Below, piece after piece: positions 13,962-28,146 of a DNA stretch of 38,487 nucleotides. The stretch is from Actinomycetota bacterium (GTDB taxonomy: Bacteria > Actinomycetota > Thermoleophilia > RBG-16-64-13): contig JAHJSA010000021.1 in assembly GCA_018830645.1 (NCBI GenBank), positions 1-38,487 on the forward strand, written 5' to 3'. A model generated the notes under the pieces. It was not told the DNA's origin, did not search any database, and worked only from the letters and a program-made list of their open reading frames with translations. Position 1 is the stretch's first letter, and the number at the start of each line of letters is the position of its first letter. A program made the position numbers and the translations under genes.

Positions 13962-15845
13962 TCACCGCCAGAGAGCCGCGTGCCGGCGCTCCCCTTCGGC
14001 GATCATCTGGTCGAGCAGTCGCATCAGCACGCCGATCGCGTCCCAGCTCGAGGTAATGCACACGGCGTCCTCGTGGTAGTCCGGATAGACGTCGATGCCG
14101 ATGGCCATGACGTCGATGCCCGCCCGCCGTATCCACGGGATGAGCGTCTGCTGGTAGTACGTCTTGAGGTCGGAAGCCCCCGAGGCGTAGAACCCGCCGC
14201 CGTTCGGGCGACCGTCGGTGATGACGATGATCAGCCTGCGTTCCTCCGAGACCCGCTCGGCCTGCAGCTTCGCGTAGGCCAGCGCCTCGATCTCGTACGT
14301 CCCGGCGCTCAAGTAGCCGAAGTCCTCGCCGAAGAAGAGCTCGAGCACGTCCTTTCGCCAGTCGTGCAGCACGGTGATCGCCGACGAGTACAAGGTGACG
14401 TCGAAAGGCACGCGGAGCCCCTGCAGTGAATCGGCCATCGCGTAAGCGACCGCCAGCGCTTTGGCCGCGTTGTTGAAGTGCAGCATCGATGGCGACACGT
14501 CGACCAGCAGATGGAAGTAGTAGGAGAGACGGGCGGGGACCTCGATCCGCTGGAACAGGCGCAGGTCCTGCGACGCGAGGTATCGCCTGAGGTTGGTCGT
14601 ACCCACCCGCCGTCCGGAGCGGTAGCTGCCCGCCGCCCGCCGGTCGGCATTGACCTGGAAAGCCCGACGCAGGGCGGCGGTCTCGGCTGCGAAGGCCTCC
14701 AGAGCAAGCGGGCCGTACCGCTCCCGCACCTGACGGAGGACTGTCCTCACCTCCGCCGTCGGGACCAGACGATGGGCGCGCGCCACCTCGATCTCGTCGA
14801 CTACCAGGGAGCCGTCGACGTGCGGGTAGAAGATCAGCTCGAAGTCGCCGGTGATGCGGGGCGCGGCCCCTTCGCCGCCCGCGCTCTGCTCGCGGGCGTC
14901 CTCGCCGAGACCCAGGCCGGTGGGACTCACCAGGTCGTCCAGCAGATCGCCCGGACGGTCCGGCAGGATCGGCTCCCGCAGGGGCATCTCTCCCTCCTCC
15001 GAAGGGAGCGTCGTGCCCGCAGACGGCCTTCCCACCCTCGCCCGCTGCCCGGCCGATGGATGCTCATACGCTGCCCAGCCCGCGGCCATCCGGTCCGCGA
15101 TGCGCGGGAACAGATCGTAGACGACCGACTCCGCCACGTCGGCCGCCTCCGGGGGATTGGGCAACCGGGCGAGCAGGTCGGCCCCGTTGCGCGCCACCGA
15201 AGGGGTCACCAAGGCCGGGAGATCGGCAGGCCCACCCCGGATCCCCAGGAACAGGTAGGCGAGGGTTTGCTCGACCTCGTCGGCTCCTACCGAAGCCAGG
15301 CGCTTTCTCGCCAGGTGGGCATTCTCTCCGAGGAACTGGGGCGCTCCGCGGAACTCCTCCAGCAACAAGCGCTCCACACGGGCATCCTCGAGGTAGTCGA
15401 TCATGCGATCGAGCAGATCGGCGGCGGCGGGGCGTTCTGCCAGCGCCACGAGCGAACCACAGAGCTCCCGCCTGCGCGGATGAGCCGGGGCGAGGGCTTC
15501 TTCGCGGGCCTGACCACGACGCCGGTACGGCGTGTGCATGATGTGACCGAGCTCGTGCAGAAATGCCGACTTGAAAGCCGTGGTGTGCGCACGCGTCCGC
15601 GTCTCGTCGCCGAGGGCTTCGATGAGGGGGTTGAGCCCCAGCCGCAGGCTCACCACCGGCGACCCGTCCGGGCCCTCGGCCCACCACGGCGCCACGGTTC
15701 GGCCTCGCAGCGTCCAGCTCAGGCGCACATCAACACCGGCGATGCTCGACCCGAACACGCGGGCCGCCTCGGTGAGCGCCTCGAGCTGAGCCACCAGCTC
15801 CGCAGCCTCATCCTCGGTGAGGCGCAGCGGTCCCCGTTCGTCCAC
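13962..15845 (-). CDS. VWA-domain protein (CbbO/NorD/CoxE-like)
   Basis: 627 residues with a C-terminal von Willebrand A domain carrying an intact MIDAS (VDVSPSMLHF near residue 450, then IVITDGRPNGGG). The N-terminal part contains HELGHIMHTPYRRRG, an HExxH-like sequence (HELGH) that could bind metal. Proteins of this type work with a MoxR-family AAA+ ATPase to remodel or insert metal cofactors into a target enzyme (Rubisco for CbbQO, NO reductase for NorQD, CO dehydrogenase for CoxDE). Its GTG start lies one base from the ATPase stop codon, so the two are translationally coupled. No Rubisco, NO reductase or CO dehydrogenase lies in the window. Confidence 0.8.
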   Translation of the reverse strand: MDERGPLRLTEDEAAELVAQLEALTEAARVFGSSIAGVDVRLSWTLRGRTVAPWWAEGPDGSPVVSLRLGLNPLIEALGDETRTRAHTTAFKSAFLHELGHIMHTPYRRRGQAREEALAPAHPRRRELCGSLVALAERPAAADLLDRMIDYLEDARVERLLLEEFRGAPQFLGENAHLARKRLASVGADEVEQTLAYLFLGIRGGPADLPALVTPSVARNGADLLARLPNPPEAADVAESVVYDLFPRIADRMAAGWAAYEHPSAGQRARVGRPSAGTTLPSEEGEMPLREPILPDRPGDLLDDLVSPTGLGLGEDAREQSAGGEGAAPRITGDFELIFYPHVDGSLVVDEIEVARAHRLVPTAEVRTVLRQVRERYGPLALEAFAAETAALRRAFQVNADRRAAGSYRSGRRVGTTNLRRYLASQDLRLFQRIEVPARLSYYFHLLVDVSPSMLHFNNAAKALAVAYAMADSLQGLRVPFDVTLYSSAITVLHDWRKDVLELFFGEDFGYLSAGTYEIEALAYAKLQAERVSEERRLIIVITDGRPNGGGFYASGASDLKTYYQQTLIPWIRRAGIDVMAIGIDVYPDYHEDAVCITSSWDAIGVLMRLLDQMIAEGERRHAALWR

Positions 15846-15846
15846 C

Positions 15847-16971
15847 TCAGCGACGGGGACGGTCGAGCAGGGACAGATCCCAAGGCGTGACGTACGAAAA
15901 CACCTGCTCCCTGAAGATCGCCTTCAGTCGGTCGTCGAGTAGATCATAGAACGCCATCTTCGCGGCGGCTACGGGACCGATGTGAGGGACGAACGAGGCC
16001 CAGGCCTCCAGCGTGCCGGTACTGAACACGAAGTTGAAGGCGCGCGACCGGTTCAGTAGCATCTCGCGCGAGACGCGAGCTACCTGGAGCATGGTCTCAA
16101 GAATCTCCATGTACGCAGGCTCCACGAATGCGGGAAAACGCTCGAGCAGGATGGCACGTTCCATGTCGAACTCCATGAACTCCAAGCGGACCGAGGCCCA
16201 GCGACGCAAGTACGCGGCCGAGAGCTCCTTCGTGCCCGGGTACAGGTCGGGGTACTCGGCCGGGTTGAACGTGGCGTAGATCCGACAGCGTGGGTGCTGA
16301 TGGACCACCTCGTTGTCCTTCTCCACCAGAGTCAGCGCCCGGGAGCCGTCGAGTAGCCCGTGCAGCGCGAACCACACCTCCTGGCCGGTTGCGTTCATCT
16401 CCTCCAGGAGTAGGACCCCCCCACGACGCACGGCCGTGGTGACCAGACCATCCTGGAACCAGACAGCGCCGCCGCCGGAAGGGACCAGCTTCCCGATGAT
16501 GTCGTCGGTGGTGGAGAGGCCGTGCAGGTTCATGCGGTAGAGCGGCGCGCCTAGGAGTGCCGCGAAGTATCGCACCAGTTCGGTCTTACCCACGCCCGTG
16601 TGACCGTGGATGGCGAGTGGAGCGTCCAGCATGTACGCAAGCGCGCAACTGAAGAGCAGCGAATCATGGTCATGATAGAAGCGCAGGGGCGGGACGAGGC
16701 CCTCCCCGCCGCCCACGGCGCCCGCATCCCACCGGGGCACCATGACCCCCCGGGCCATGAGCTTCCCCCCAGGATCGGGGAACGAGCCCGTGAACAGCAG
16801 GAGACCATCACCAACGTGGTAGACACCGTCGAAGGGAGTGTGCGCCGTGGCCTCCGGCTCGACGCCCGCGATCTCCATCGCGCCGGCAAGAAGACGCTCG
16901 CGGTCGGGCGCGACAAGAGCCCGACAGCCGTTCTCGCAAGCAGCGAACATGGACGGGCGCTGCATCTGCAA
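15847..16971 (-). CDS. MoxR/CbbQ-like AAA+ ATPase
   Basis: 374 residues. An N-terminal extension of about 100 residues starts with a Cys pair (FAACENGCRAL). Then come Walker A GHTGVGKT at 123-130, the CbbQ/NirQ-like stretch MNLHGLSTTDDIIG, Walker B GGVLLLEEMN at about 184-193, sensor 1 in CRIYATFNPAEYPDLYPG and an arginine finger region (AYLRRWASV). The ATG follows GGGGAGG. It is co-transcribed with the VWA gene and divergent from the DUF362-Mrp-lar-mft operon. This makes that operon's products its most likely clients, though that is inference. Confidence 0.88.
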   Translation of the reverse strand: MQMQRPSMFAACENGCRALVAPDRERLLAGAMEIAGVEPEATAHTPFDGVYHVGDGLLLFTGSFPDPGGKLMARGVMVPRWDAGAVGGGEGLVPPLRFYHDHDSLLFSCALAYMLDAPLAIHGHTGVGKTELVRYFAALLGAPLYRMNLHGLSTTDDIIGKLVPSGGGAVWFQDGLVTTAVRRGGVLLLEEMNATGQEVWFALHGLLDGSRALTLVEKDNEVVHQHPRCRIYATFNPAEYPDLYPGTKELSAAYLRRWASVRLEFMEFDMERAILLERFPAFVEPAYMEILETMLQVARVSREMLLNRSRAFNFVFSTGTLEAWASFVPHIGPVAAAKMAFYDLLDDRLKAIFREQVFSYVTPWDLSLLDRPRR

Positions 16972-17379: not shown

Positions 17380-18849
17380 ATGGCCAAGAAAGAGAAGGTG
17401 TGGTTCTCAGACGCGAACGCTACGTGCTGGACGGAAGCCTTGCCGTGCAAGGCGAAAGACCTCTTCTATGAAGCGAAGTTCGACGAGATCATCGAAAAGG
17501 ATGACGAGGTCGCGATCAAGATCCACGTTGGCGAGTGGAACCGCACACGGGTCCTGCGGCCCGAGTTGGTTGCCGCGATCGTCGAAGAGGTCAAGGCCGC
17601 CGGCGGCCGCCCCTTCGTGTGCGACACCACGACCGTGCCATACCACGCGTACAACTCGCGGGTGACTGGGAGTCTCGAGCTCGAGTCGGCCTACCGTCAC
17701 GGCTTCACCCCGGATGCCCTGGGCTGCCCGCTTGTCATCGCCGACGGTTTCTCGGGCGACGACGACGTTCGCGTCGAGGTTCCAGAGGGTGTCATCCTCA
17801 AGGAGGCCTACGTCGCGGCGGCTCTGGTTCACGCGGACGCCATGATCAACCTGGCACACGCCAAGGGCCACCCCATCACCTCGTACGGTGGCGGGATCAA
17901 GTGCATCGGTATCGGTGGGCAGTCCAAGCGAGGCAAGTTCCACGAGCACCTGGCTCACTGGGGAGAGCCGCAGGACGCCATCGGCTGGCCGCTCTCCAAC
18001 CCAGATGAATGCCACGGCGTGAAGTGCGACTTCCATCAGCAATGCATGGACGGTTGCCACCGAAACGCCATCACAATCAACGAGAAGGGCTTCCACAGAG
18101 ACACCGCGGCGTGCCGTCTCTGCTACAGCTGCCAGGTGACCTGCATCTTCACCGGCCACCTTTCGCAGGGATTCACCCCCGACTACTTCCCCTACGCTCA
18201 GATGGCCATGTCCGACGCGGCCCTCGGCGTGCTGAAGACATTCGAGGGCGGCAAAGTCGGGCACATGGCGTACGCCATCGACATCGACCCCAACTGCGAC
18301 TGCATCCCGTGGGCGACGCTGCCGTTGTGTCCGGACCTCGGCGTGTACGCCTCATATGACGTTGTGGCCATGGATAGCTGCATCCTCGACGACATCGACA
18401 ACGCCCCCGTCGCCCCGGGCGGCGCCAACGATGCCTTCGAGGGCAGCGACTACAAGGTCGGCGAGGACAAGTTCAAGATCACCCAGAGTACCCCGCCGCG
18501 CTATCAGCTAACGGCCGGCGTGGCCAACGGCATGGGCACCATGGACTACGAGAAGGTAGTGTGGGAACCGCCGATCACCCGAGTGCACAGCGCGAAGTGG
18601 CAGATCCGTCGGGACCCCGCCGCTCTCATCCTCCGCCGTATGTGGACCAAGCGGGACTACCTGAAGGAAGCAGAGCCCTTCGCGAAGATCCCGTTCGCCG
18701 ACAAGCCGGTCATCCCCGACTGGCTGCCGCAGGACGGCAAGACCAAGGCTCTCGAAGGCATGCCGGTGGTCACGGCGTCGATGCACAAGTCCAAGGGCGT
18801 GGGTCGCGAGCTCTCGGCTCCGGGCCATCCGAAGGATTTCGCCAAGTAG
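17380..18849 (+). CDS. DUF362 protein with two Cys4 Fe-S motifs, first gene of the cluster
   Basis: 489 residues. The DUF362 domain (KIHVGEWNRTRVLRPELVAA and GGRPFVCDTTTVPYHAYNSR) continues through NLAHAKGHPITSYGGGIKC. Two Cys4 sets follow, C211/C216/C222/C226 (CX4CX5CX3C, atypical) and C245/C248/C251/C255 (CX2CX2CX3C), which suit two [4Fe-4S] clusters. The DUF362 C-terminal part (IDPNCDCIPW, CPDLGVYASYDVVAMDSCIL) comes next, then about 100 residues of tail with no recognised domain. The ATG at 17380 is supported by AGGAAAGGGG. DUF362 proteins are redox-type proteins of unknown reaction. No Tat signal is present, so this one is cytoplasmic. It opens the plus-strand run leading to the lar and mft genes. 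Confidence 0.8.
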   Translation: MAKKEKVWFSDANATCWTEALPCKAKDLFYEAKFDEIIEKDDEVAIKIHVGEWNRTRVLRPELVAAIVEEVKAAGGRPFVCDTTTVPYHAYNSRVTGSLELESAYRHGFTPDALGCPLVIADGFSGDDDVRVEVPEGVILKEAYVAAALVHADAMINLAHAKGHPITSYGGGIKCIGIGGQSKRGKFHEHLAHWGEPQDAIGWPLSNPDECHGVKCDFHQQCMDGCHRNAITINEKGFHRDTAACRLCYSCQVTCIFTGHLSQGFTPDYFPYAQMAMSDAALGVLKTFEGGKVGHMAYAIDIDPNCDCIPWATLPLCPDLGVYASYDVVAMDSCILDDIDNAPVAPGGANDAFEGSDYKVGEDKFKITQSTPPRYQLTAGVANGMGTMDYEKVVWEPPITRVHSAKWQIRRDPAALILRRMWTKRDYLKEAEPFAKIPFADKPVIPDWLPQDGKTKALEGMPVVTASMHKSKGVGRELSAPGHPKDFAK

Positions 18850-19001: not shown

Positions 19002-20168
19002 ATGGCAAACACCGCACCCGACGTGCACCCTCTGAGCACCCGTCAAGAGAGGTCGGGCGAGCCCGCCTGGGTGCTCTACGAGCCCGCGAGGTCCCGTCAT
19101 GCCGGGGATTCCTTTCTGGCGCGCTACACGGAGCTGCTCGGTGAGTCCCAACTCGAGCGCTTGGCCAAACGGAAGGAGGAGATCCTGATCAGGGTCGACT
19201 CCGGCGAAGTGGGCGCGTTCCGCGGCCTGCGGCCTGCGTTCGTACGCGCGGTCGTTGAACAGGTTCGCGAGCTCGACCGTCATCCCGTCCTCTTCGATAC
19301 ATGTCACCTCCGGCAGTCCGCCAAGGGCCTCGGATGGTCCTCCGTCGACGCCGCGACGACAAACGGGCTGGTCTCCTCGGCTCTGGGAACCGAGATCAAT
19401 ATCGGCGACGGCTGGGGAGGCGGAGAGACCGAACTCCTGGCCGTGGAAGGCGAGGAACTCGGAGGCATCGAGGTCGCCCGGGTCGTCGTCGATGGCGGTG
19501 GGGTGGTCGTCATGTCGCACGTCACCGGGCACCCACTCACCGGCCTTTCTGGAGCCCTGCTGGCCCTCGGGGAAGGGTGCCTCGGCCGGACCGGCAAGCT
19601 GCGCTTGGCGAAGGGGCTGCTGCCGGGCGTCACGCCGGCCTGTGACGGCTGCGCGGCGTGCGTGGAAGCATGTCCGGTGGATGCGCTCAGCGTGGTGGAC
19701 GGCGCGGCCCGGCTCGATGGGCAGCTCTGCCTGGGTTGCAGTCTCATCTGCACCCCTACCTGTCCCGAGGGCGCCCTGGAGGTGAGCCCGCGCGACAGAG
19801 AAAGGTACTCCCGGCGGGTGGTGGAGGCGGGAGGCGCGGTACATCTGGCCGCCATGGACAAGCTGCTGTTCGTCAACCTGCTCCTCGACGTCACAGTAGA
19901 GCCCGAGGCCGCCGGGTACTCCGACCTGCCGGTCGTGCCCGACCTGGGAGTTCTCATCTCTACGGATCCAGTGGCCGTGGATACCGCAACGCTCGACCTG
20001 CTCGACATGGCTCCGGGCATAGCCGGGACGGCCGCCCAGACTGCCGGCGTCCTCGAGGCCGGATCCGCTAAGTTGGAACAGCTGTGCGGAGCGAATCCCC
20101 GCACCCTGGTTGCCATGGCCGAGGAGTTCGGCCTAGGCACGAGGGCCTATCGACTCATGAGCCTGTAG
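19002..20168 (+). CDS. DUF362 protein with 2x[4Fe-4S] ferredoxin domain
   Basis: 388 residues in the common DUF362 arrangement. The N-terminal part (ILIRVDSGEVGAFRGLRPAF, VLFDTCHLRQSAKGL) is followed by VVMSHVTGHPLTGLSGALL. A bacterial ferredoxin insert has CDGCAACVEACPVDAL and CLGCSLICTPTCPEGAL (two Cys4 sets), and the C-terminal domain has DLPVVPDLGVLISTDPVAVD. It shares architecture with the gene before it but is only distantly similar. The two may form a pair of electron-transfer or metal-handling proteins. It is followed 10 bases later by the His-rich Mrp ATPase. Confidence 0.85.
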   Translation: MANTAPDVHPLSTRQERSGEPAWVLYEPARSRHAGDSFLARYTELLGESQLERLAKRKEEILIRVDSGEVGAFRGLRPAFVRAVVEQVRELDRHPVLFDTCHLRQSAKGLGWSSVDAATTNGLVSSALGTEINIGDGWGGGETELLAVEGEELGGIEVARVVVDGGGVVVMSHVTGHPLTGLSGALLALGEGCLGRTGKLRLAKGLLPGVTPACDGCAACVEACPVDALSVVDGAARLDGQLCLGCSLICTPTCPEGALEVSPRDRERYSRRVVEAGGAVHLAAMDKLLFVNLLLDVTVEPEAAGYSDLPVVPDLGVLISTDPVAVDTATLDLLDMAPGIAGTAAQTAGVLEAGSAKLEQLCGANPRTLVAMAEEFGLGTRAYRLMSL

Positions 20169-20178
20169 GAGTATAACC

Positions 20179-21408
20179 ATGCACCCTGACCGCCCGGATA
20201 GTCACGGCCTGAACGGGAAGCACGCGGGGCACGACCACGACCACGGTCATGACCACGGTCACGGTCACGCCCGCGACCGCGGTCTCGCCGGAACTCCGGC
20301 GCCCGCTGCGAATCCGGCCCTTCCGCACGACCCCGACGACCACAGCGAGTTCGCGATCCTGGCCTCGGCCGGGAGCGCCCAAGAACGTAGGCAGGTATTC
20401 GAGGAGTTGCAGCGCAAGGCGCGGGAAGACTACATCCGCCAGAGCGGCCCTATCGCGCGGGCCTTGCGCGGGGTCAAGCACAAGGTCGCCATCCTCAGCG
20501 GCAAGGGCGGTGTGGGCAAGACCACGCTGACCGTGAACCTGGGCGCCACGCTCCATGCCATGGGATACAGCGTGGTCATCTTCGACGCCGACGTCCATGG
20601 GCCGAGCGTGCCCAAGATGCTGGGCGCCCTGGGCCGGACGGGGGTGAAACCCCTGCACGACCACGATAGCGAGGACGAGCAGCCCGAAAGCCATGCGCCC
20701 AGCAGTGGAGGAGGGTGTCCGGCGAGCCAAAGCCAAGGCCACTCCCACGGGCACTCGCACCAGGAGGAGGGAGAGTCGCCCGAACCCAACCTCGACCATC
20801 ACTCGTTCCTCTTCGAACCGGTACAGACCAAACATGGAGTCAGCGTCATCTCGGTCGCGTCGATCTGGCCCAACGAGGAGACGCCGGTTCTCTGGAAAGG
20901 CCCCCACAAGATGCGCGCCATCCGGCAGTTCTTAAGCGCGGCCCACTGGGGCGACGTGGACTTCCTCCTGGTCGACCTCCCCCCGGGCACCGGCGATGAG
21001 GTCCAGACCATCATGACTGCCATCCCGGGACTGGACGGCATGCTCCTCATCACAACTCCACAGGGCGTGTCGCGCATGGTCTGCTCCAAAGCAGTGAACT
21101 GTGCCCGGGAGCTGGAAGCCCCGATCCTCGGTCTCGTTGAGAACATGGGCCTCTTGTGCTGCCCTCACTGCAGCGGTCCCATCAGACCGTTCGGACAAGG
21201 AAAGGGCGAGCGTCTGGCCCGCATGATGGACGTGCCCTTCTGGGGTTCCATCCCGTTTGGGTCCGACGTGGGTACCGCCTGCGACCAGGGGATCCCGGCG
21301 GTACTGGACGACCCCGAAGGTCCGGTGGCTGATGCCTTCCGAGAAATCGCCCACCGGCTCCTGGTCGCCATCGGTGAAGAGCAGCCCGTGATCTCGGAGA
21401 ACCGTTGA
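20179..21408 (+). CDS. Mrp/NBP35-family P-loop ATPase with two His-rich segments
   Basis: 409 residues. The deviant Walker A of the family is ILSGKGGVGKTTLTVNLG, with Walker B VDLPPGTGDE and a C-terminal CCPHC that, in dimers, holds a bridging [4Fe-4S] cluster. Mrp proteins carry and deliver Fe-S clusters. Two extras stand out: an N-terminal tail full of His and Asp (GHDHDHGHDHGHGHARDRG, residues 17-35) and a similar insertion after the first ATPase motifs (SQGHSHGHSHQEEGE, about residues 188-202). His-rich runs like these occur in nickel chaperones such as HypB and SlyD. Together with the downstream lar genes they suggest nickel or mixed Ni/Fe-S delivery (inference). The start has TAGGAG upstream, and the stop overlaps the next start. 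Confidence 0.88.
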   Translation: MHPDRPDSHGLNGKHAGHDHDHGHDHGHGHARDRGLAGTPAPAANPALPHDPDDHSEFAILASAGSAQERRQVFEELQRKAREDYIRQSGPIARALRGVKHKVAILSGKGGVGKTTLTVNLGATLHAMGYSVVIFDADVHGPSVPKMLGALGRTGVKPLHDHDSEDEQPESHAPSSGGGCPASQSQGHSHGHSHQEEGESPEPNLDHHSFLFEPVQTKHGVSVISVASIWPNEETPVLWKGPHKMRAIRQFLSAAHWGDVDFLLVDLPPGTGDEVQTIMTAIPGLDGMLLITTPQGVSRMVCSKAVNCARELEAPILGLVENMGLLCCPHCSGPIRPFGQGKGERLARMMDVPFWGSIPFGSDVGTACDQGIPAVLDDPEGPVADAFREIAHRLLVAIGEEQPVISENR

Positions 21409-21782
21409 TGACGATGCAGCCCCTTGATCTACCCGAGGTCGAACTCCGCGCGGGATGGGACCCCTTGGACTCGGTCGTGGAGCGCGCCTGCCGCATCGGC
21501 CTGGCGGCACTCATCGTTATCCACCAGACCCTGCGGCAGCTTGTTGAACCCCAGGAGCTGGGCCCCGCGCTCTGCCGCCTCGGGGCGGGTGAGGCGCTGG
21601 GGGAATCCTGGGACCGGCTCGGCGAACTGCCCGACGGCATGGCCACGATCTCCCTACTCCAACTGGTCGACTCGCTGGCCTTCGACGCCGACTACCAGCT
21701 TGCACGCTACGGACTCACCTCCCTCTCGGAGGACCACAAGGAACTGCTTCAGACTCTCAGGCACATAGGCGTGCGCGTCTAA
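21408..21782 (+). CDS. Hypothetical protein of 124 residues in the lar cluster
   Basis: Starts with an ATG that overlaps the stop of the Mrp gene by one base, so it is coupled to it. The protein (MTMQPLDLPEVELRAGWDPL onward) looks mostly helical, with a hydrophobic stretch IGLAALIVIHQTLRQLVEP, and has only one Cys (ALCRLG). No family is recognised. Its position between the Mrp ATPase and lar genes suggests a partner of one of them. Confidence 0.7.
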   Translation: MTMQPLDLPEVELRAGWDPLDSVVERACRIGLAALIVIHQTLRQLVEPQELGPALCRLGAGEALGESWDRLGELPDGMATISLLQLVDSLAFDADYQLARYGLTSLSEDHKELLQTLRHIGVRV

Positions 21783-21806: not shown

Positions 21807-22133
21807 ATGGCAGAAGTGGTGAAGGACGGACGGCATTATCTCGCGGACGTCACCGGGGTCCTCGCGGCGATAGGGCCGAAGCTCGACGCGGCGAGACAAC
21901 GGAAGATCGAGGAGTTCGGTACCCGTGGTGAGAGGGTGCAGAAGAAGCTCTTCCTCAAGACCCAAGGCGGCACCGACCTGGCCGCCACAACCGCCGACAT
22001 CGCCACCAGGCTGCAGAGCGAAGTCGACGCCGGCGCCCCCGAGGCCGACATCAACAAGACCTTCGACGAGCTGGTTGAAGCCCTCGAGTTCTTCATCCAC
22101 AGGGCCGAGACCCTAATAATCCGGATGACCTAG
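21807..22133 (+). CDS. Hypothetical protein of 108 residues in the lar cluster
   Basis: Preceded by GGGAAGGAG. The protein has no Cys and few His, and reads as helices rich in Ala, Lys and Glu (LAAIGPKLDAARQRKIEEFG; TFDELVEALEFFIHRAETLI). No family is recognised. It ends two bases before the larE start, so it is in the same operon. Confidence 0.7.
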   Translation: MAEVVKDGRHYLADVTGVLAAIGPKLDAARQRKIEEFGTRGERVQKKLFLKTQGGTDLAATTADIATRLQSEVDAGAPEADINKTFDELVEALEFFIHRAETLIIRMT

Positions 22134-22135
22134 TC

Positions 22136-23047
22136 GTGGACAAGGGGGACAACGAGCTCCGAGCGACCTTCGCGTCGCCGAACAGCGCGCCGCCGGCCGC
22201 CCAAGAGGCTGGGTGGAGTCGCCTGCAGGCACTGTTGAAGGACACCGGCGGGGCCGTCGTCGCTTTCTCGGGCGGCGTCGATTCCACGCTTCTGCTGGCC
22301 GCGTGCCGCGCAGCACTGGGAGATCGGGTACTGGCCGCCACCGCCCTGTCCGAGACCTACCCCCAAGAAGAAGCCGAGGGTGCCGAGCGCCTGGCGCACT
22401 CCCTGGGGGTGGCGCACCGCTTCGTCGTGTCGGAGGAGCTTGACCTGCCCGAGTTCGCTCACAACCCGCGGAACCGCTGCTACTACTGCAAGAAGGAGCT
22501 CTTCTCCAAGCTTGTCGACGTGGCGTCGAGCGAGGGCCTCGCCTGCGTGGTCGACGGTTCGAACCTGGACGATCAGAGCGACCACCGTCCCGGCTCGCAG
22601 GCGGCGTCCGAGCTCGCCGTGCTGAGCCCTCTCAGAGAAGCCGGCCTAACCAAGGCCGATATCAGAGCTCTGTCCCGCTGGCTGGAGCTACCCACGTGGA
22701 ACAAGCCCTCATTCGCCTGCCTCTCGTCGCGCTTCCCCTATGGGACGGCGATCACACGCGAGCGTGTGGGCCGGGTCGGCAGGGCCGAGAGAGAGCTTCG
22801 CCGGCTGGGCTTCACCCAGCTACGCCTGCGCTACCACGAGGAGGTGGGCCGCCTCGAGGTCCTGCCCGAGCAGTTCGGGCTGCTGCTGGAACTGGGCGTG
22901 GCCGAGCGGGTCGTCGCCATCGTCAAGGAGGCGGGCTTCACGTACGTCACCTTCGACCTCCAGGGCTACCGCACCGGCAGCATGAACGAGGTGCCCGAAG
23001 TCGAGGTGCCTACTTCCTTCCAGGTGGCGGCCGAGGTGGGCGCATGA
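22136..23047 (+). CDS. larE: LarE: sulfur insertase of nickel-pincer nucleotide synthesis
   Basis: 303 residues. The PP-loop is VVAFSGGVDSTLLLAA, followed by RNRCYYCKKELF and GSNLDDQSDHRPG. LarE adenylates the carboxylates of the pyridinium dicarboxylate mononucleotide and replaces them with thiocarboxylates. The Cys in PSFACLSSRFPYG is at the place of the sacrificial Cys of LarE from Lactiplantibacillus, and no further Cys follows. This suggests the single-Cys, self-sacrificing type rather than the three-Cys cluster type. A GTG start two bases after the previous gene gives coupling, and it overlaps larB by 4 bases (ATGA). The gene order E-B-C is unusual next to the textbook larABCDE. Confidence 0.92.
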   Translation: MDKGDNELRATFASPNSAPPAAQEAGWSRLQALLKDTGGAVVAFSGGVDSTLLLAACRAALGDRVLAATALSETYPQEEAEGAERLAHSLGVAHRFVVSEELDLPEFAHNPRNRCYYCKKELFSKLVDVASSEGLACVVDGSNLDDQSDHRPGSQAASELAVLSPLREAGLTKADIRALSRWLELPTWNKPSFACLSSRFPYGTAITRERVGRVGRAERELRRLGFTQLRLRYHEEVGRLEVLPEQFGLLLELGVAERVVAIVKEAGFTYVTFDLQGYRTGSMNEVPEVEVPTSFQVAAEVGA

Positions 23048-23883
23048 ACCGCGATGACCTCCAGCACCTGCTCGACGACGTCGCCGCAGGCCGGGTAGAT
23101 GTGAACCGCGCCTTCACGCGATTGTCCCAGCTCCCGTATGAAGATCTGGGCTACGCCCACATCGACCACCACCGCACCGTGCGGCGCGGCTACGGCGAGG
23201 CCATACTCTGCGCCGGAAAGACCGTGGAGCAGGTGGTGGGCATCGCCCAACGGATGGTGGCCTACGGGCACACCAACGCCCTTGCGACGCGGGCGTCCCC
23301 CGAGATGCTGACCGCCCTGGAAGCGGGCCTACACTCCGTCCGCCTGATACCGGAGGCGGGGCTGGCCGTGCTCAACCCGGTGGAGCAAGAGCTCCACGGC
23401 CTAGTGTGCGTCGTCACGGGGGGGACATCCGACATCCCCGTGGCCGAGGAGGCCGCCGTCACGGCTGAATGCCAGGGGAGCCGAGTGGAACGCCTCTACG
23501 ACGTGGGGGTGGCGGGTATCCACCGGCTGCTGGCGAAGATCGATACCTTGGCCGAAGCCAACGCCATCGTCGCGGTGGCCGGCATGGAGGGAGCGCTGGC
23601 CAGCGTGGTCGGAGGGCTTGCCTCATGCCCAGTCATAGCCGTGCCCACCAGCGTCGGCTATGGCGCCAACCTAGGCGGCATCGCCGCGCTGCTATGCATG
23701 CTGAACTCCTGCTCCCCCGGGGTGTCGGTGGTCAACATCGACAACGGCTATGGAGCCGGGTACCAGGCCAACGCCATCAATCGTATGGCCTGCGGCGAGC
23801 GGCCTGGCGCTGCCGCTGGTCGCATCCCGGACGGCACCGTCGTCGCGGATCGCAACGCAGATCACGCGGAGGCAGGTCGATGA
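23044..23883 (+). CDS. larB: LarB: nicotinate-nucleotide carboxylase/hydrolase
   Basis: 279 residues, PurE-like. The motifs VVTGGTSDIPVAEEA, AVAGMEGALASVVGG and AVPTSVGYGA are diagnostic. LarB carboxylates nicotinic acid adenine dinucleotide at C5 and cleaves off AMP, giving the dicarboxylate mononucleotide for LarE. It overlaps larE and larC by ATGA at both ends, so the three are translated together. Confidence 0.95.
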   Translation: MNRDDLQHLLDDVAAGRVDVNRAFTRLSQLPYEDLGYAHIDHHRTVRRGYGEAILCAGKTVEQVVGIAQRMVAYGHTNALATRASPEMLTALEAGLHSVRLIPEAGLAVLNPVEQELHGLVCVVTGGTSDIPVAEEAAVTAECQGSRVERLYDVGVAGIHRLLAKIDTLAEANAIVAVAGMEGALASVVGGLASCPVIAVPTSVGYGANLGGIAALLCMLNSCSPGVSVVNIDNGYGAGYQANAINRMACGERPGAAAGRIPDGTVVADRNADHAEAGR

Positions 23884-24722
23884 CCACCGCCTACGTTGAC
23901 ACCTTCAGCGGCGTCAGCGGCGACATGCTGCTGGGTGCTCTCGTCGATGCCGGCCTCCCGCTTGAAGAGCTTCAAGGCGCGCTGGATACCCTGGGGGTCC
24001 AGGGTCTGCGCCTCATCAGCACCGCCGAGCGGCGCAACAGCATCGGCGCCACGCGCGTCATGGTGAACTACCCGCCACAGCACGAGCACCGCCACCTCAA
24101 GCACATCGTGTCGCTCATCGAGGCCGGCAGCCTCCCGGAAGAGGTCAAAGGACGGGCGGTGGACGTGTTCCTCCGCCTCGCCGAGGCGGAGGCGCAGATT
24201 CACCGCATCGACCCGCAGCGGGTGCACTTCCACGAGGTGGGAGCGGCCGACGCCATCGCCGACGTCGTCGGCACGGTGTTCGGTTTCCACCACCTAGGCA
24301 TAGAAGAGATCCTCGTCGGGCCGGTCAACGTGGGCGCAGGACTGGTCCGCTGCGAGCACGGTCTCCTTCCGGCGCCGGCGCCGGCCACGCTCGCCCTGCT
24401 CGCCGGTTGGGTCTGCCACTCAGCCGGCCCTGTGCGCGAGCTCACCACACCCACCGGCGCGGCCCTTCTGACCACCCTGGGACGGCAGGTGGAGTCGTTC
24501 CCCGCACTGCGCGTTAGGCGGGTGGGGTACGGCGCCGGCGGAGCCGACACCCCGGGGTGGCCGAACGTGCTGCGCGTCGTACTCGGGGAGCTGGTAGTGA
24601 CCGGGTCGCAGGGGCCGCGTCCGGACGAGGCCCCCAAGGGCCAACGTAGCGCGCCCGACGAGCAGGGGCACGAACAACGTCACGATCACAATCACCCCCA
24701 TAGGCACCAGCACCAGCACTAA
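23880..24722 (+). CDS. larC: LarC, N-terminal domain (LarC1) only, with His-rich tail
   Basis: 280 residues. The N-terminal LarC domain is complete: YVDTFSGVSGDMLLGALVDA, the His cluster HEHRHLKHI, HFHEVGAADAIADVVG, NVGAG and LTTPTGAALL, ending in GWPNVLRVVLGE. Full LarC inserts nickel into the cofactor at the cost of CTP, and its C-terminal LarC2 domain binds CTP. Here the usual LarC2 part (about 130 residues, recognisable by ETNIDDM) is absent from this frame and was not found in the following frames. Instead there is a spacer and the tail HEQRHDHNHPHRHQHQH. The start ATG overlaps the larB stop. Whether the short form is active is unknown. Confidence 0.88.
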   Translation: MTTAYVDTFSGVSGDMLLGALVDAGLPLEELQGALDTLGVQGLRLISTAERRNSIGATRVMVNYPPQHEHRHLKHIVSLIEAGSLPEEVKGRAVDVFLRLAEAEAQIHRIDPQRVHFHEVGAADAIADVVGTVFGFHHLGIEEILVGPVNVGAGLVRCEHGLLPAPAPATLALLAGWVCHSAGPVRELTTPTGAALLTTLGRQVESFPALRVRRVGYGAGGADTPGWPNVLRVVLGELVVTGSQGPRPDEAPKGQRSAPDEQGHEQRHDHNHPHRHQHQH

Positions 24723-24735: not shown

Positions 24736-24740
24736 ACATG

Positions 24741-24887
24741 ATGGACGACCCCGTCACGCTGGAGCCCAATCAGGTGTCGGTGGACGAAGGTGCGGCGACC
24801 CACGATGAGCCCAGCCTCGCCGACCTCGTGCTCGGCGAATGGGACTTCGAAGAGATCTCCATCGACGGCATCTGTGGCGTCTACTAG
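24741..24887 (+). CDS. mftA: Mycofactocin precursor peptide MftA
   Basis: 48 residues, starting MDDPVTLEPNQVSVDEG and ending WDFEEISIDGICGVY. The C-terminal IDGxCGVY is the hallmark of MftA: MftC decarboxylates the last Tyr and crosslinks it to the preceding Val. Most precursors have Met before the Cys (IDGMCGVY); Ile here is a small variant. The peptide is very acidic, as usual. It starts 18 bases after larC, which places mycofactocin genes in the same run as the lar genes. Confidence 0.93.
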   Translation: MDDPVTLEPNQVSVDEGAATHDEPSLADLVLGEWDFEEISIDGICGVY

Positions 24888-24916: not shown

Positions 24917-25723
24917 GTGAAGCTGGACGGTAAGGTGGCTGTCGTCACTGGGGGAGCGCGGGGGAACGGCCTCGCATCGGCGTTGGCGCTGGCCCGCGAG
25001 GGAGCAGACATCGCCCTCTTGGATATCTGCCGGGACATCGACACGGTCCCGTACCCGCTGTCCGACCAGGCAAAGCTTGACGACGCGGTACAGCAGATCA
25101 AGGCTCTTGGCCAGAACGCCATCGGCGTCGCGTGCGACGTACGCTTCGAGGCAGACGTCATAGCCGCGGTGCAGCGGGTCCTCGACGAGTTCGGTCACGT
25201 GGATATCTTGGTGAACAATGCCGGCGTGACATCCCTCACCGCCGTGGTCGACATGCCCGAGGAGGAGTGGGACAACCTCGTGGACACCCATCTCAAGGGT
25301 GCGTTCCTCTGCAGCAAACACGTCCTGCGGCACATGATCGGGCAGCACTCGGGCAAGGTGGTCAATATCGGCTCGGTGGGCTCGTTCAAGGGTTTCGGCC
25401 TAGGCGCGCACTACTCAGCCGCGAAGCACGGCATGCTCGGCTTCACCAAGTCGCTGGCGATGGAAGTAGCCGACCACAACATCAACGTGAACGCGGTGTG
25501 CCCCGGGACTGTGTGGACCGACATGATGATCGGCCTCGTCGACAGCCTGGGGATGGACCAGGAAGAGGCTCAGGAGCAGTTCACCATGGACCACCTCATG
25601 AACGCCGACCACCCCGTCACCTCCGAGGATGTCGCAAACGCCGTGCTGTGGCTGTGCACCGATGATTCCCGCAACACCACGGGTTTCGCTCTCGGCGTCG
25701 ACTCGGGGTGGCTGGCCCATTGA
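24917..25723 (+). CDS. Mycofactocin-coupled short-chain dehydrogenase/reductase
   Basis: 268 residues, classical SDR: VAVVTGGARGNG (nucleotide), NNAG, the catalytic Ser in GSVGS, and YSAAKHG (Tyr and Lys). It carries the insertion typical of the mycofactocin-associated SDRs (LDICRDIDTVPYPL and SDQAKLDDAV) between beta-2 and alpha-2. Members hold NAD very tightly and depend on mycofactocin to reoxidise it. The substrate is probably an alcohol, not further defined. Start GTG at 24917 after AAAGGAGCAAG. It is placed between mftA and mftB, unlike the common mftABC order. Confidence 0.92.
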   Translation: MKLDGKVAVVTGGARGNGLASALALAREGADIALLDICRDIDTVPYPLSDQAKLDDAVQQIKALGQNAIGVACDVRFEADVIAAVQRVLDEFGHVDILVNNAGVTSLTAVVDMPEEEWDNLVDTHLKGAFLCSKHVLRHMIGQHSGKVVNIGSVGSFKGFGLGAHYSAAKHGMLGFTKSLAMEVADHNINVNAVCPGTVWTDMMIGLVDSLGMDQEEAQEQFTMDHLMNADHPVTSEDVANAVLWLCTDDSRNTTGFALGVDSGWLAH

Positions 25724-25728
25724 CATCC

Positions 25729-25989
25729 ATGACACACGTCGGCACCGTCAGCACCGAAGCCTCCGAGCGGAGGTTGAGCCTGGCTCCGGGCGTCCGTCTT
25801 CGCCCGGAGCCATTCGGCGGTATGGCATTCACCCCACGGACGGGGACGCTTGTGATTCTCGCCCCAGCGGCCTACACCCTCCTCGTGGATCTTGGCTCAG
25901 AAGGACCGCCGGTCCCCATCACGGAGCAGGCGGAGGCGGCGATTCATCGTCTCGTGCGAAGCGGGATCGTCGTTGACTCGCCTGCTTGA
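25729..25989 (+). CDS. mftB: Mycofactocin chaperone MftB (PqqD-like)
   Basis: 86 residues in the winged-helix RRE fold. It binds the MftA leader and presents it to the radical SAM enzyme MftC. The family pattern is LAPGVRLRPEPFGGMAFTPR, followed by LVILAPAAYTLLVDLG and a helix ending VRSGIVV. The start ATG is 5 bases after the SDR stop, and the end overlaps the mftC start by 17 bases. Confidence 0.88.
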   Translation: MTHVGTVSTEASERRLSLAPGVRLRPEPFGGMAFTPRTGTLVILAPAAYTLLVDLGSEGPPVPITEQAEAAIHRLVRSGIVVDSPA

Positions 25990-26227
25990 CAAGGTCCGTC
26001 TGTCTGCGCCTGTCACCGTCACCTGGGAGGTCATCGCGGCGTGCAGCCTCCGGTGCCGCCACTGCCTGTCCTCGTCGGGTAATGGTGGGGCCGGGGAGTT
26101 GTCCACGTGCGACGCTTTGCGACTGGTCCGTATCCTGGCGCAGGCCGGCGTGTTCCAGGTCGAAGAACGCTACGCTGACTGGAGGAGCCCGTGTCGAGTC
26201 AGTTCAGGTATCTGTTCAGCCCCCTGA
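25973..26227 (+). pseudogene. mftC: MftC radical SAM enzyme, truncated to its first ~63 residues
   Basis: From a TTG at 25973 the frame reads LTRLLDKVRLSAPVTVTWEV, then IAACSLRCRHC with the SAM-cluster cysteines C24, C28 and C31, then CDALRLVRILAQAGVFQV. Here MftC should continue with the GGEP motif and about 280 more residues with auxiliary cluster cysteines. Instead, at about 26161, unrelated residues follow (EERYADWRSP), and the frame runs into the next gene and stops at 26227. MftC catalyses both decarboxylation and crosslinking of MftA, so this form cannot be active. The cut joins cleanly to the leader of the next gene, so a real deletion or an assembly collapse is possible. Confidence 0.85.
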
Positions 26228-28146
26228 AGATCGGATCGACCACGGTCCGCAACCGCATCTCCTTCTCGGCCCACCTGACGCGGTTTGCAGAGAACTGGCT
26301 CCCCACGGAGAGAAACGCCGCCTACCTGGGTGAGCGGGCCAAGGGCGGCTGTGGCCTCATCATCACGGAGGAGCAGTCGGTGCACCCCACCGACCGCGCT
26401 TACGACCGCATGATCGACGCCTTCGAGCCGGCGGTGGTCCCCGGCTACCGGCAGATCACCTGGGCGGTGCACCACTACGGAGGGCGGGTCTTCGCTCAGC
26501 TCAACCACAACGGCCAACAGTGCGACGGCACACGTTCCCGTCTCCCCGTCATCGCCCCGTCGGACATCCCCGACGTGCTGTTCCGCGAGACCCCAAAGAT
26601 CGCCGAGGCCGAGGATCTCGCCGACATACTCGAAGGCTTCTACACCTCCAGCCGCCACGTCGTGCTGGGAGGCTTCGACGGCATCGAGATCCAGGCGAGT
26701 CACGCCTCGCTGCTTCGCCAGTTCATGTCGCCCCTCTCCAATCGCCGCAGCGACGTCTACGGCGGCAGCCTGGAGAACCGGATGCGCTTCACCTATGAGG
26801 TGATCGACGCGCTGCGCGAAGCGGTGGGCCCCGACTACACCCTGGGCATCCGTCTCACCGCCGACGAGATGATACCCGGCGGCCTCCGCCTAGAGGACAC
26901 CCAGGAGATCGCTTCGCTCCTCGAACAGACCGGCAAGATCGACTACATCAATCTCTCCATCGGCACCTTCTACAACCTCTACCTTGTGGAAGGCTCGATG
27001 CATACACCGCTGGGCTATACGGTGCCCTTGGCGGCCGCAGTGCGCAGCGTCGTCTCGCTCCCGGTGTTCGCAACCGGTCGCATCAACGACCCCGTGCAGG
27101 CCGAGAAGGTCCTCGCCGACGGACACGCCGACATGATCGGCATGGTGCGGGCCCAGATCTGCGACCCGGAACTCGCGATCAAAGCGCTGGAAGGTCGACT
27201 GGACGACATCCGAGCCTGCATCGGGTGCAACCAGGGATGCATCGGGCGCATCGGCTCCGGACTCACGGTGGGCTGTGTGCAGAACCCCGCGGTCGGCAAG
27301 GAGAACACCTGGGGCGTCGACACCCTGAAGCCGGCTCAGCGTCAGCGCAGGGTCCTCGTCATCGGTGGCGGCCCAGCCGGCATGGAGGCCGCCCGGATGG
27401 CCTCTCTCCGGGGTCACCGGGTGACGCTCTGGGAGCGCAGCGACCACCTGGGAGGACAGGTAGCCATCGCGGCGCTGGCCACGGGCCGCTCAGAGTTCGC
27501 GGGGGCAACGCGATGGCTGCAGGGGCAAATCAAGAAGCTACCCATCGACGTGACCCTGAACCACGAGGCGACGGTCGACGCCGTGCTCGCTTTCAACGCC
27601 GACGTGGTGGTCGTCGCTACCGGCAGTCGCCCGATAGACGTGGCGGTGCCGGGCGCCGATGGACCTGGGATCTACTCGGTGTGGCAGGTGCTGCAGGAGA
27701 AGCCGGAGCTGGGCGAACGGGTGCTTGTGGTCGACTACAACGGCCACCACCAGTCCACCAGCGTGGCCGAGGGTCTACTCGACGACGGCCACAAGGTGAC
27801 CCTCGTGACACCGTCGCTCTTCGTCGGCGCCGAACTCGGCCCCCTGCAGGATCTCTACATGGCCCTGCAGCGCCTCATGACCAAAGGTGCCGACATGGTC
27901 ATGAACATCGCCGTCATGTCCTTCGACGGCACGACCGCCCAGGGCTTCAACGTGTACTCCAACATACCCTGGTCCTCCCCCGAGGCCGACAGCGTGGTCC
28001 TCTCTATGGGCAATCAGGTCAACGATGAGCTCTACTTCACCCTCAAGGGTAAGGTGCACGAGCTCCATCGGGTGGGAGATTGCGTCGCACCCCGTAAGGT
28101 CGACATGGCGATCCTGGAAGGTCACGCCCTGGGGAGGACGCTTTGA
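26191..28146 (+). CDS. Mycofactocin-system FadH/OYE-family oxidoreductase
   Basis: 651 residues, built like 2,4-dienoyl-CoA reductase. An N-terminal OYE TIM barrel with FMN (LFSPLKIGSTTVRNRISFSA, FAQLNHNGQQ, FDGIEIQASHASLLRQF, SDVYGGSLENRMRF) is followed by a [4Fe-4S] site C343, C346, C350, C362 (CX2CX3CX11C). The C-terminal FAD/NAD domain has VLVIGGGPAGMEAARMAS and ends HRVGDCVAPRKVDMAILEG. Homologues occur in many mycofactocin loci beside the ETF genes, as here. The GTG start has GGAGGAG upstream. Its start sits at the broken end of mftC. Likely role: electron exchange between reduced mycofactocin or a substrate and the ETF (inference). Confidence 0.92.
   Translation: MSSQFRYLFSPLKIGSTTVRNRISFSAHLTRFAENWLPTERNAAYLGERAKGGCGLIITEEQSVHPTDRAYDRMIDAFEPAVVPGYRQITWAVHHYGGRVFAQLNHNGQQCDGTRSRLPVIAPSDIPDVLFRETPKIAEAEDLADILEGFYTSSRHVVLGGFDGIEIQASHASLLRQFMSPLSNRRSDVYGGSLENRMRFTYEVIDALREAVGPDYTLGIRLTADEMIPGGLRLEDTQEIASLLEQTGKIDYINLSIGTFYNLYLVEGSMHTPLGYTVPLAAAVRSVVSLPVFATGRINDPVQAEKVLADGHADMIGMVRAQICDPELAIKALEGRLDDIRACIGCNQGCIGRIGSGLTVGCVQNPAVGKENTWGVDTLKPAQRQRRVLVIGGGPAGMEAARMASLRGHRVTLWERSDHLGGQVAIAALATGRSEFAGATRWLQGQIKKLPIDVTLNHEATVDAVLAFNADVVVVATGSRPIDVAVPGADGPGIYSVWQVLQEKPELGERVLVVDYNGHHQSTSVAEGLLDDGHKVTLVTPSLFVGAELGPLQDLYMALQRLMTKGADMVMNIAVMSFDGTTAQGFNVYSNIPWSSPEADSVVLSMGNQVNDELYFTLKGKVHELHRVGDCVAPRKVDMAILEGHALGRTL

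Follow-up and report, generated by a model that had tools for sequence, protein, structure and literature searches.

A histidine-rich Mrp ATPase in a lar/DUF362 gene cassette found in two bacterial phyla: likely iron-sulfur clients and a candidate NPN user

In the genome of an Actinomycetota bacterium, we found that a histidine-rich Mrp/NBP35 ATPase is encoded in one operon with larE, larB, a short larC and the genes for two DUF362 proteins, which are related to lactate racemase (LarA). The same set of nine genes was found in a metagenome-assembled genome (MAG) of Myxococcota, and in both genomes LarC2 is encoded elsewhere. The CXXC motif of the Mrp, the [4Fe-4S] motif of LarE and the ferredoxin-type clusters of the DUF362 proteins favor Fe-S delivery, which judging from these sequence features is most likely the job of the Mrp. 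What the cassette possibly reveals is a missing user of the nickel-pincer nucleotide (NPN), and not a novel route of nickel insertion.

The window analyzed is the whole stretch of 38,487 nucleotides of contig JAHJSA010000021.1 (assembly GCA_018830645.1). On its forward strand, the genes for DUF362a, DUF362b, the Mrp, a 124-aa protein, a 108-aa protein, LarE, LarB, the short LarC, MftA and an SDR follow each other nearly without gaps. At several gene boundaries the stop and start codons share a few bases, and these genes may therefore be translationally coupled. The features of the operon are listed below, where L079 is the Myxococcota locus.

17380–18849, forward strand: DUF362a, a LarA-clan protein and candidate NPN enzyme (PF04015, E = 2.1e-36; 52% identity to L079)
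17869–17949, forward strand: H164, K174 and H190 of DUF362a, aligned with LarA His174, Lys184 and His200 (profile alignment)
18010–18144, forward strand: two ferredoxin-type Cys clusters of DUF362a (residues 211–226 and 245–255)
19002–20168, forward strand: DUF362b with a ferredoxin domain (family search and motif alignment)
20179–21408, forward strand: Mrp/NBP35 ATPase, 409 aa (PF10609, 258 bits against a cut-off of 27.1, E = 8.5e-77)
20203–20268, forward strand: N-terminal His/Asp-rich segment of the Mrp (residues ~9–30)
20500–20523, forward strand: deviant Walker A motif GKGGVGKT of the Mrp (residues 108–115)
20626–20802, forward strand: insertion of ~60 residues with the second His-rich segment of the Mrp (residues ~150–208)
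21160–21171, forward strand: CPHC of the Mrp, the CXXC for [4Fe-4S] (residues 328–331)
21408–21782, forward strand: conserved 124-aa protein, p125 (no Pfam or NCBIfam match; L079 homologue, E = 3e-9)
21807–22133, forward strand: conserved 108-aa protein, p108 (no family match; weak L079 homologue, E = 0.001)
22136–23047, forward strand: LarE (TIGR00268, 310 bits; CXXC-C cysteines 115, 118 and 195)
23044–23883, forward strand: LarB of the cassette type (NF033503, 272 bits; 69–74% identity to those of genomes G005, G054, G039 and G029)
23880–24722, forward strand: short LarC, LarC1 only, 280 aa, with a His-rich tail (PF01969 positions 1–235 of 375; TIGR00299)
24738–24887, forward strand: MftA mycofactocin precursor, 49 aa, ending in IDGICGVY (TIGR03969, 28.9 bits against a cut-off of 25)
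24917–25723, forward strand: mycofactocin-coupled SDR oxidoreductase (NF040490, 416 bits; 59% identity to L079)

The Mrp open reading frame is a convincing gene and encodes the sole true Mrp found in the window genome. The protein had been described in an earlier note on this DNA as an Mrp with two His-rich segments, Walker motifs and CPHC, which is borne out by the PF10609 match, the motif positions and the His counts. The His/Asp-rich run of the N-terminal segment (20230–20268) reads HDHDHGHDHGHGH, and the insertion, which is absent from the L079 Mrp, begins after DADVHGPSVPKMLG and contains GHSHGHSH at 20737–20760. The His content of this Mrp peaks at 8 per 20 residues (p ~4e-8 per 20-residue stretch against a background of 2.8%), an enrichment that is not due to chance. 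At least 6 His per 20 residues were found in 3 of the 207 proteins predicted at 14 loci, the three being the window Mrp, the short LarC encoded with it and the Mrp of the L079 cassette; this count left out the L079 LarC, which was missed by the gene caller and is likewise His-rich. Of 54 other Mrps of the phylum, 53 had at most 3 His per 20 residues, and the remaining one (5 His) is a wrongly extended frame.

The Walker A motif and the CXXC are intact in the window Mrp and kept in its L079 orthologue, with both Cys of CPHC invariant between the two; the CXXC of Mrp/NBP35 proteins binds a bridging [4Fe-4S] (PMC6345978). The window Mrp resembles the Fe-S carriers ApbC and MrpORP (PF10609) in fold family, deviant Walker A, CXXC and solved-structure matches, the best of which are Fe-S carriers. 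It differs from them in its two His-rich segments, in lacking the N-terminal MIP18-like domain, in its fixed place in a lar/DUF362 operon and in its deep, separate clade, and its scores fell below the cut-offs of both the NCBIfam MrpORP (NF041136, 260 vs. 450 bits) and ApbC (NF008669, 174 vs. 348 bits) families. Together with the L079 Mrp it forms one clade (100/99) with long branches, apart from 55 other Mrps.

The contig scan with this Mrp returned a single close relative, MEMX01000126.1 (L079), from the MAG Anaeromyxobacter sp. RBG_16_69_14 (Myxococcota). This locus has all nine genes, for DUF362a, DUF362b, Mrp, the two small proteins, SDR, LarE, LarB and the short LarC. The link between a His-rich Mrp and lar genes, with a short LarC among them, had been reported for the window in the earlier note; it is not peculiar to one locus but recurs in a second phylum with the whole set, and the short LarC is His-rich in both. 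The identity between the two cassettes is 52% for DUF362a, 30% for DUF362b, 45% for Mrp, 29% for p125 (E = 3e-9), 59% for SDR, 56% for LarE and 54% for LarB, and the 108-aa protein shares the end RMT with its weak L079 homologue. In L079 the genes for the two small proteins stand in the opposite order, and larE is preceded by the SDR gene. The His segments of Mrp and LarC1 are also placed differently in the two cassettes: the L079 Mrp has a His tail at its C-terminus and the L079 LarC a long His-rich insertion, while the His-rich tail of the window LarC starts at 24669.

No further full cassette was found among 396 genomes of the phylum, where the next DUF362 scored 263 bits vs. 1011, or in viral contigs; plasmids yielded distant DUF362 proteins only, and no DNA-level copies were found in phages. 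The two known full cassettes both come from metagenome or draft assemblies. Given these two cases, the simplest reading is that the nine-gene cassette may have been passed between phyla. The genome of the same genus as the window genome has canonical LarB only and no Mrp, and the window Mrp thus seems to belong to the cassette. No Mrp gene was found near cassette-type larE-larB-larC1 in other genomes, so the lar step in itself does not depend on the Mrp. Cassette-type larE and larB (74–75% identity) with no larC nearby were observed in G005 (L095, 13901–15705). In G054, genes for another type of DUF362 protein, of 496 aa, and for a putative beta-keto acid cleavage enzyme directly precede larE-larB-larC1 (L070, 10907–14558, reverse strand), a second DUF362-lar neighborhood, without Mrp.

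The LarB, LarE and LarC1 of the window pass their curated cut-offs and belong to the same families as those of the NPN pathway of L. plantarum, T. maritima and M. thermoacetica. The window differs from this pathway in that LarC is split (LarC1 alone), larA is absent from the operon, and DUF362, Mrp and SDR genes are added. A seven-row LarB tree was not resolved. LarE contains SGGVDS and has both the SGGXDS and the CXXC-C of the [4Fe-4S]-type LarE; the CXXC-C of T. maritima LarE was shown to bind [4Fe-4S] (PMC9283937).

We give about even weight to the following scheme as a whole, in which the Mrp is dedicated to the cassette and serves clients encoded in its own operon. The Mrp would form a homodimer, hold a [4Fe-4S] between the CPHC motifs of its two subunits and hand it to LarE, the CXXC-C sulfur insertase, and to the ferredoxin-type clusters of DUF362a and DUF362b. 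Its His segments most likely bind a divalent metal, for which nickel is a plausible candidate, and would form with the His-rich LarC1 a shared local metal buffer. The CTP-driven step would stay with a LarC2 from another gene and would not be taken over by the Mrp. The cassette would make NPN, which is probably used in DUF362a, beside a mycofactocin-coupled dehydrogenase. If so, the Fe-S clients of this Mrp can be guessed from its operon. Counting against the scheme, the Mrp falls short of the MrpORP and ApbC cut-offs, the cassette-type lar genes of other genomes have no Mrp nearby, and the known full cassettes number two.

DUF362 and LarA (DUF2088) share Pfam clan CL0471 (PMC11770544). Alignment of a profile of 31 DUF362 sequences with one of five LarAs gave one confident ungapped segment of 50 columns with a score of 41.2 (at most 17.9 in the controls, for which the LarA profile was reversed once and column-shuffled 19 times), in which residues 141–190 of DUF362a are paired with 146–195 of the LarA of the window genome. 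The alignment is gapless over LarA His174, Lys184 and His200, and the spacing of +10 and +26 is the same in both proteins. In L. plantarum LarA, His174 is catalytic, Lys184 attaches the cofactor and His200 is a nickel ligand (PMC9283937, PMC12611868). DUF362a differs from the LarA superfamily in having ferredoxin-type Cys clusters and in belonging to PF04015, not PF09861. No match to Lar_N (PF09861) was found in the window DUF362a; the L079 DUF362a has a weak one over the same segment (E = 0.006; 16.3 bits, below the cut-off of 23.3). In the DUF362b of both cassettes, neither the Lys nor the second His of this motif is retained.

On the basis of this alignment, we hypothesize that DUF362a could bind NPN. 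In the phylum sample, LarC was present in 90 of 96 genomes with DUF362a-like proteins vs. 158 of 300 others (Fisher test, 5e-15, ignoring relatedness). A rule that DUF362 proteins lack the His/Lys/His motif where LarC is absent was rejected, as 3 of the 6 genomes with DUF362a-like proteins and no detected LarC keep the motif, which is thus not strictly tied to NPN synthesis. No proposal of an NPN-binding DUF362 was found in the portions of the DUF362 literature that were searched. The hypothesis is well aimed, since a survey found larB, larE and larC without larA in ~15% of genomes, whose NPN-using protein is unknown (PMC11796402). We regard it as tentative that DUF362a is a non-LarA Fe-S enzyme using NPN and that the cassette is self-contained, with the His-rich Mrp and the split, His-rich LarC building an NPN/[4Fe-4S] enzyme, perhaps mycofactocin-coupled. 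By joining NPN synthesis with two LarA-clan proteins in a single operon, and doing so in two phyla, the cassette provides a concrete candidate NPN user; by extension, DUF362 proteins with His/Lys/His would account for the missing NPN users of many genomes with larB, larC and larE but without larA.

It is doubtful that the Mrp is instead a nickel-loading ATPase, whose His segments would take Ni2+ and whose ATP hydrolysis would pass it to LarC1, with LarC2 in trans keeping the CTP step. Both cassettes have His-rich segments in the Mrp and in LarC1, and their differing positions suggest repeated selection for metal binding. A precedent is the HypB of T. kodakarensis, an Mrp/MinD-family ATPase that acts in nickel maturation (PMC7055735). 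The ATPase domain of HypB (3vx3) is related to that of the window Mrp, but the partner of HypB is HypA/hydrogenase rather than lar genes, whereas the window Mrp has its operon link to LarC1 and more similarity to CXXC-type Mrps. The HypB-type reading is lowered by the score against 3vx3 (81 bits vs. 170 bits for Fe-S-type Mrps), the CXXC is kept in the window Mrp, and a nickel site was not found in T. kodakarensis HypB itself (PMC7055735).

A further point against nickel loading is the Mrp encoded at L080 of an alphaproteobacterial MAG in which no LarC match was found. This Mrp has an N-terminal domain and a linker that, with 11 His per 20 residues, is richer in His than the window Mrp, and judging from it the His runs are not specific to lar-linked Mrps. 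It should be noted that L080 surfaced in a scan whose patterns included HDHDHGHD and hence tells nothing about frequency. The earlier note had held that its nickel-loading proposal would be refuted if the same His-rich Mrp were common in genomes without lar genes and tracked only with Fe-S enzymes; the L080 Mrp is one case that goes against the proposal in this way. A very His-rich stretch was also observed in a planctomycete LarC with a LarC2 part (L081, 9371–10624, reverse strand), near the place of the L079 LarC insertion, and His-rich LarC insertions are thus wider than this cassette. The His segments of the window Mrp may bind nickel.

We consider it improbable that the Mrp is a housekeeping protein that lies beside lar genes by chance, with His runs that are neutral linkers. 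That it is the only Mrp found in its genome and that the unrelated alphaproteobacterial Mrp has a His-rich linker are in keeping with this explanation. However, the same-genus genome and several genomes of the family have no Mrp, which is therefore not needed for housekeeping, and the Mrp accompanies the cassette in a second phylum as well; in the tree, the window Mrp falls with the copy from there and outside the Mrps of its own family.

As the earlier note stated, the window LarC is short; it does not have the two domains, LarC1 and LarC2, of a full LarC, and no LarC2 is encoded nearby. A LarC2 encoded by frameshift after the short LarC was ruled out, as no LarC2 homology was found in any frame of the window or of L079. 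A full-length LarC is encoded on another contig (C94) of the window genome, and in the Anaeromyxobacter genome LarC2 (156 aa) has a gene of its own, on a different contig from the cassette. In G039, of the same class as the window genome, a stand-alone LarC2 gene (164 aa) closely precedes a larB of the cassette type and a short larC; a similar LarC2 gene is found at a contig end in G029, and G054 has a full LarC plus a short one. Given LarC2 elsewhere in both cassette genomes and beside larB-larC1 in G039, the short LarC is best explained as half of a split LarC, or as an additional LarC1 that relies on LarC2 in trans, rather than as a new nickel-insertion mechanism. The suggestion of the earlier note that the Mrp replaces LarC2, with ATP instead of CTP driving nickel insertion, is in line with the operons of the window and L079, which are without LarC2, but is very improbable given these LarC2 genes. 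Of the variant nickel-insertion machine proposed there, the coupling of Mrp to the short LarC recurs in L079, but LarC2 is kept elsewhere.

The full-length LarC gene on C94 (L099) lies beside genes that by sequence reading resemble those for CO dehydrogenase, CooC, FolD and formyl-THF synthetase, a Wood-Ljungdahl neighborhood. A 593-aa protein without Pfam match adjoins the stand-alone LarC2 in G039 and G029 (L069, 6262–8043; L071, 691–2472).

MoxR-VWA pairs often help insert metals and could be another possible helper of NPN enzymes. A MoxR/CobS-like AAA ATPase and a VWA protein are encoded divergently upstream of DUF362a in the window (13962–16971, reverse strand), and a MoxR-VWA pair directly follows larC1 in G054 (L070, 5559–9085, reverse strand).

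Mycofactocin genes continue the window operon after the lar genes; no MftA was found in the L079 locus. Both these genes and the two LarA-clan DUF362 proteins had been overlooked in the earlier note. The window resembles a mycofactocin gene cluster in having MftA, an MftB-like protein, the coupled SDR and an OYE-type oxidoreductase, and differs in that MftC is seemingly truncated. An MftC-like radical-SAM start (CSLRCRHC) at 25986–26227 runs for ~60 residues to a stop, with no NCBIfam match, and the window MftC looks truncated or misassembled. The mycofactocin OYE-type oxidoreductase is encoded next, at 26191–28146.
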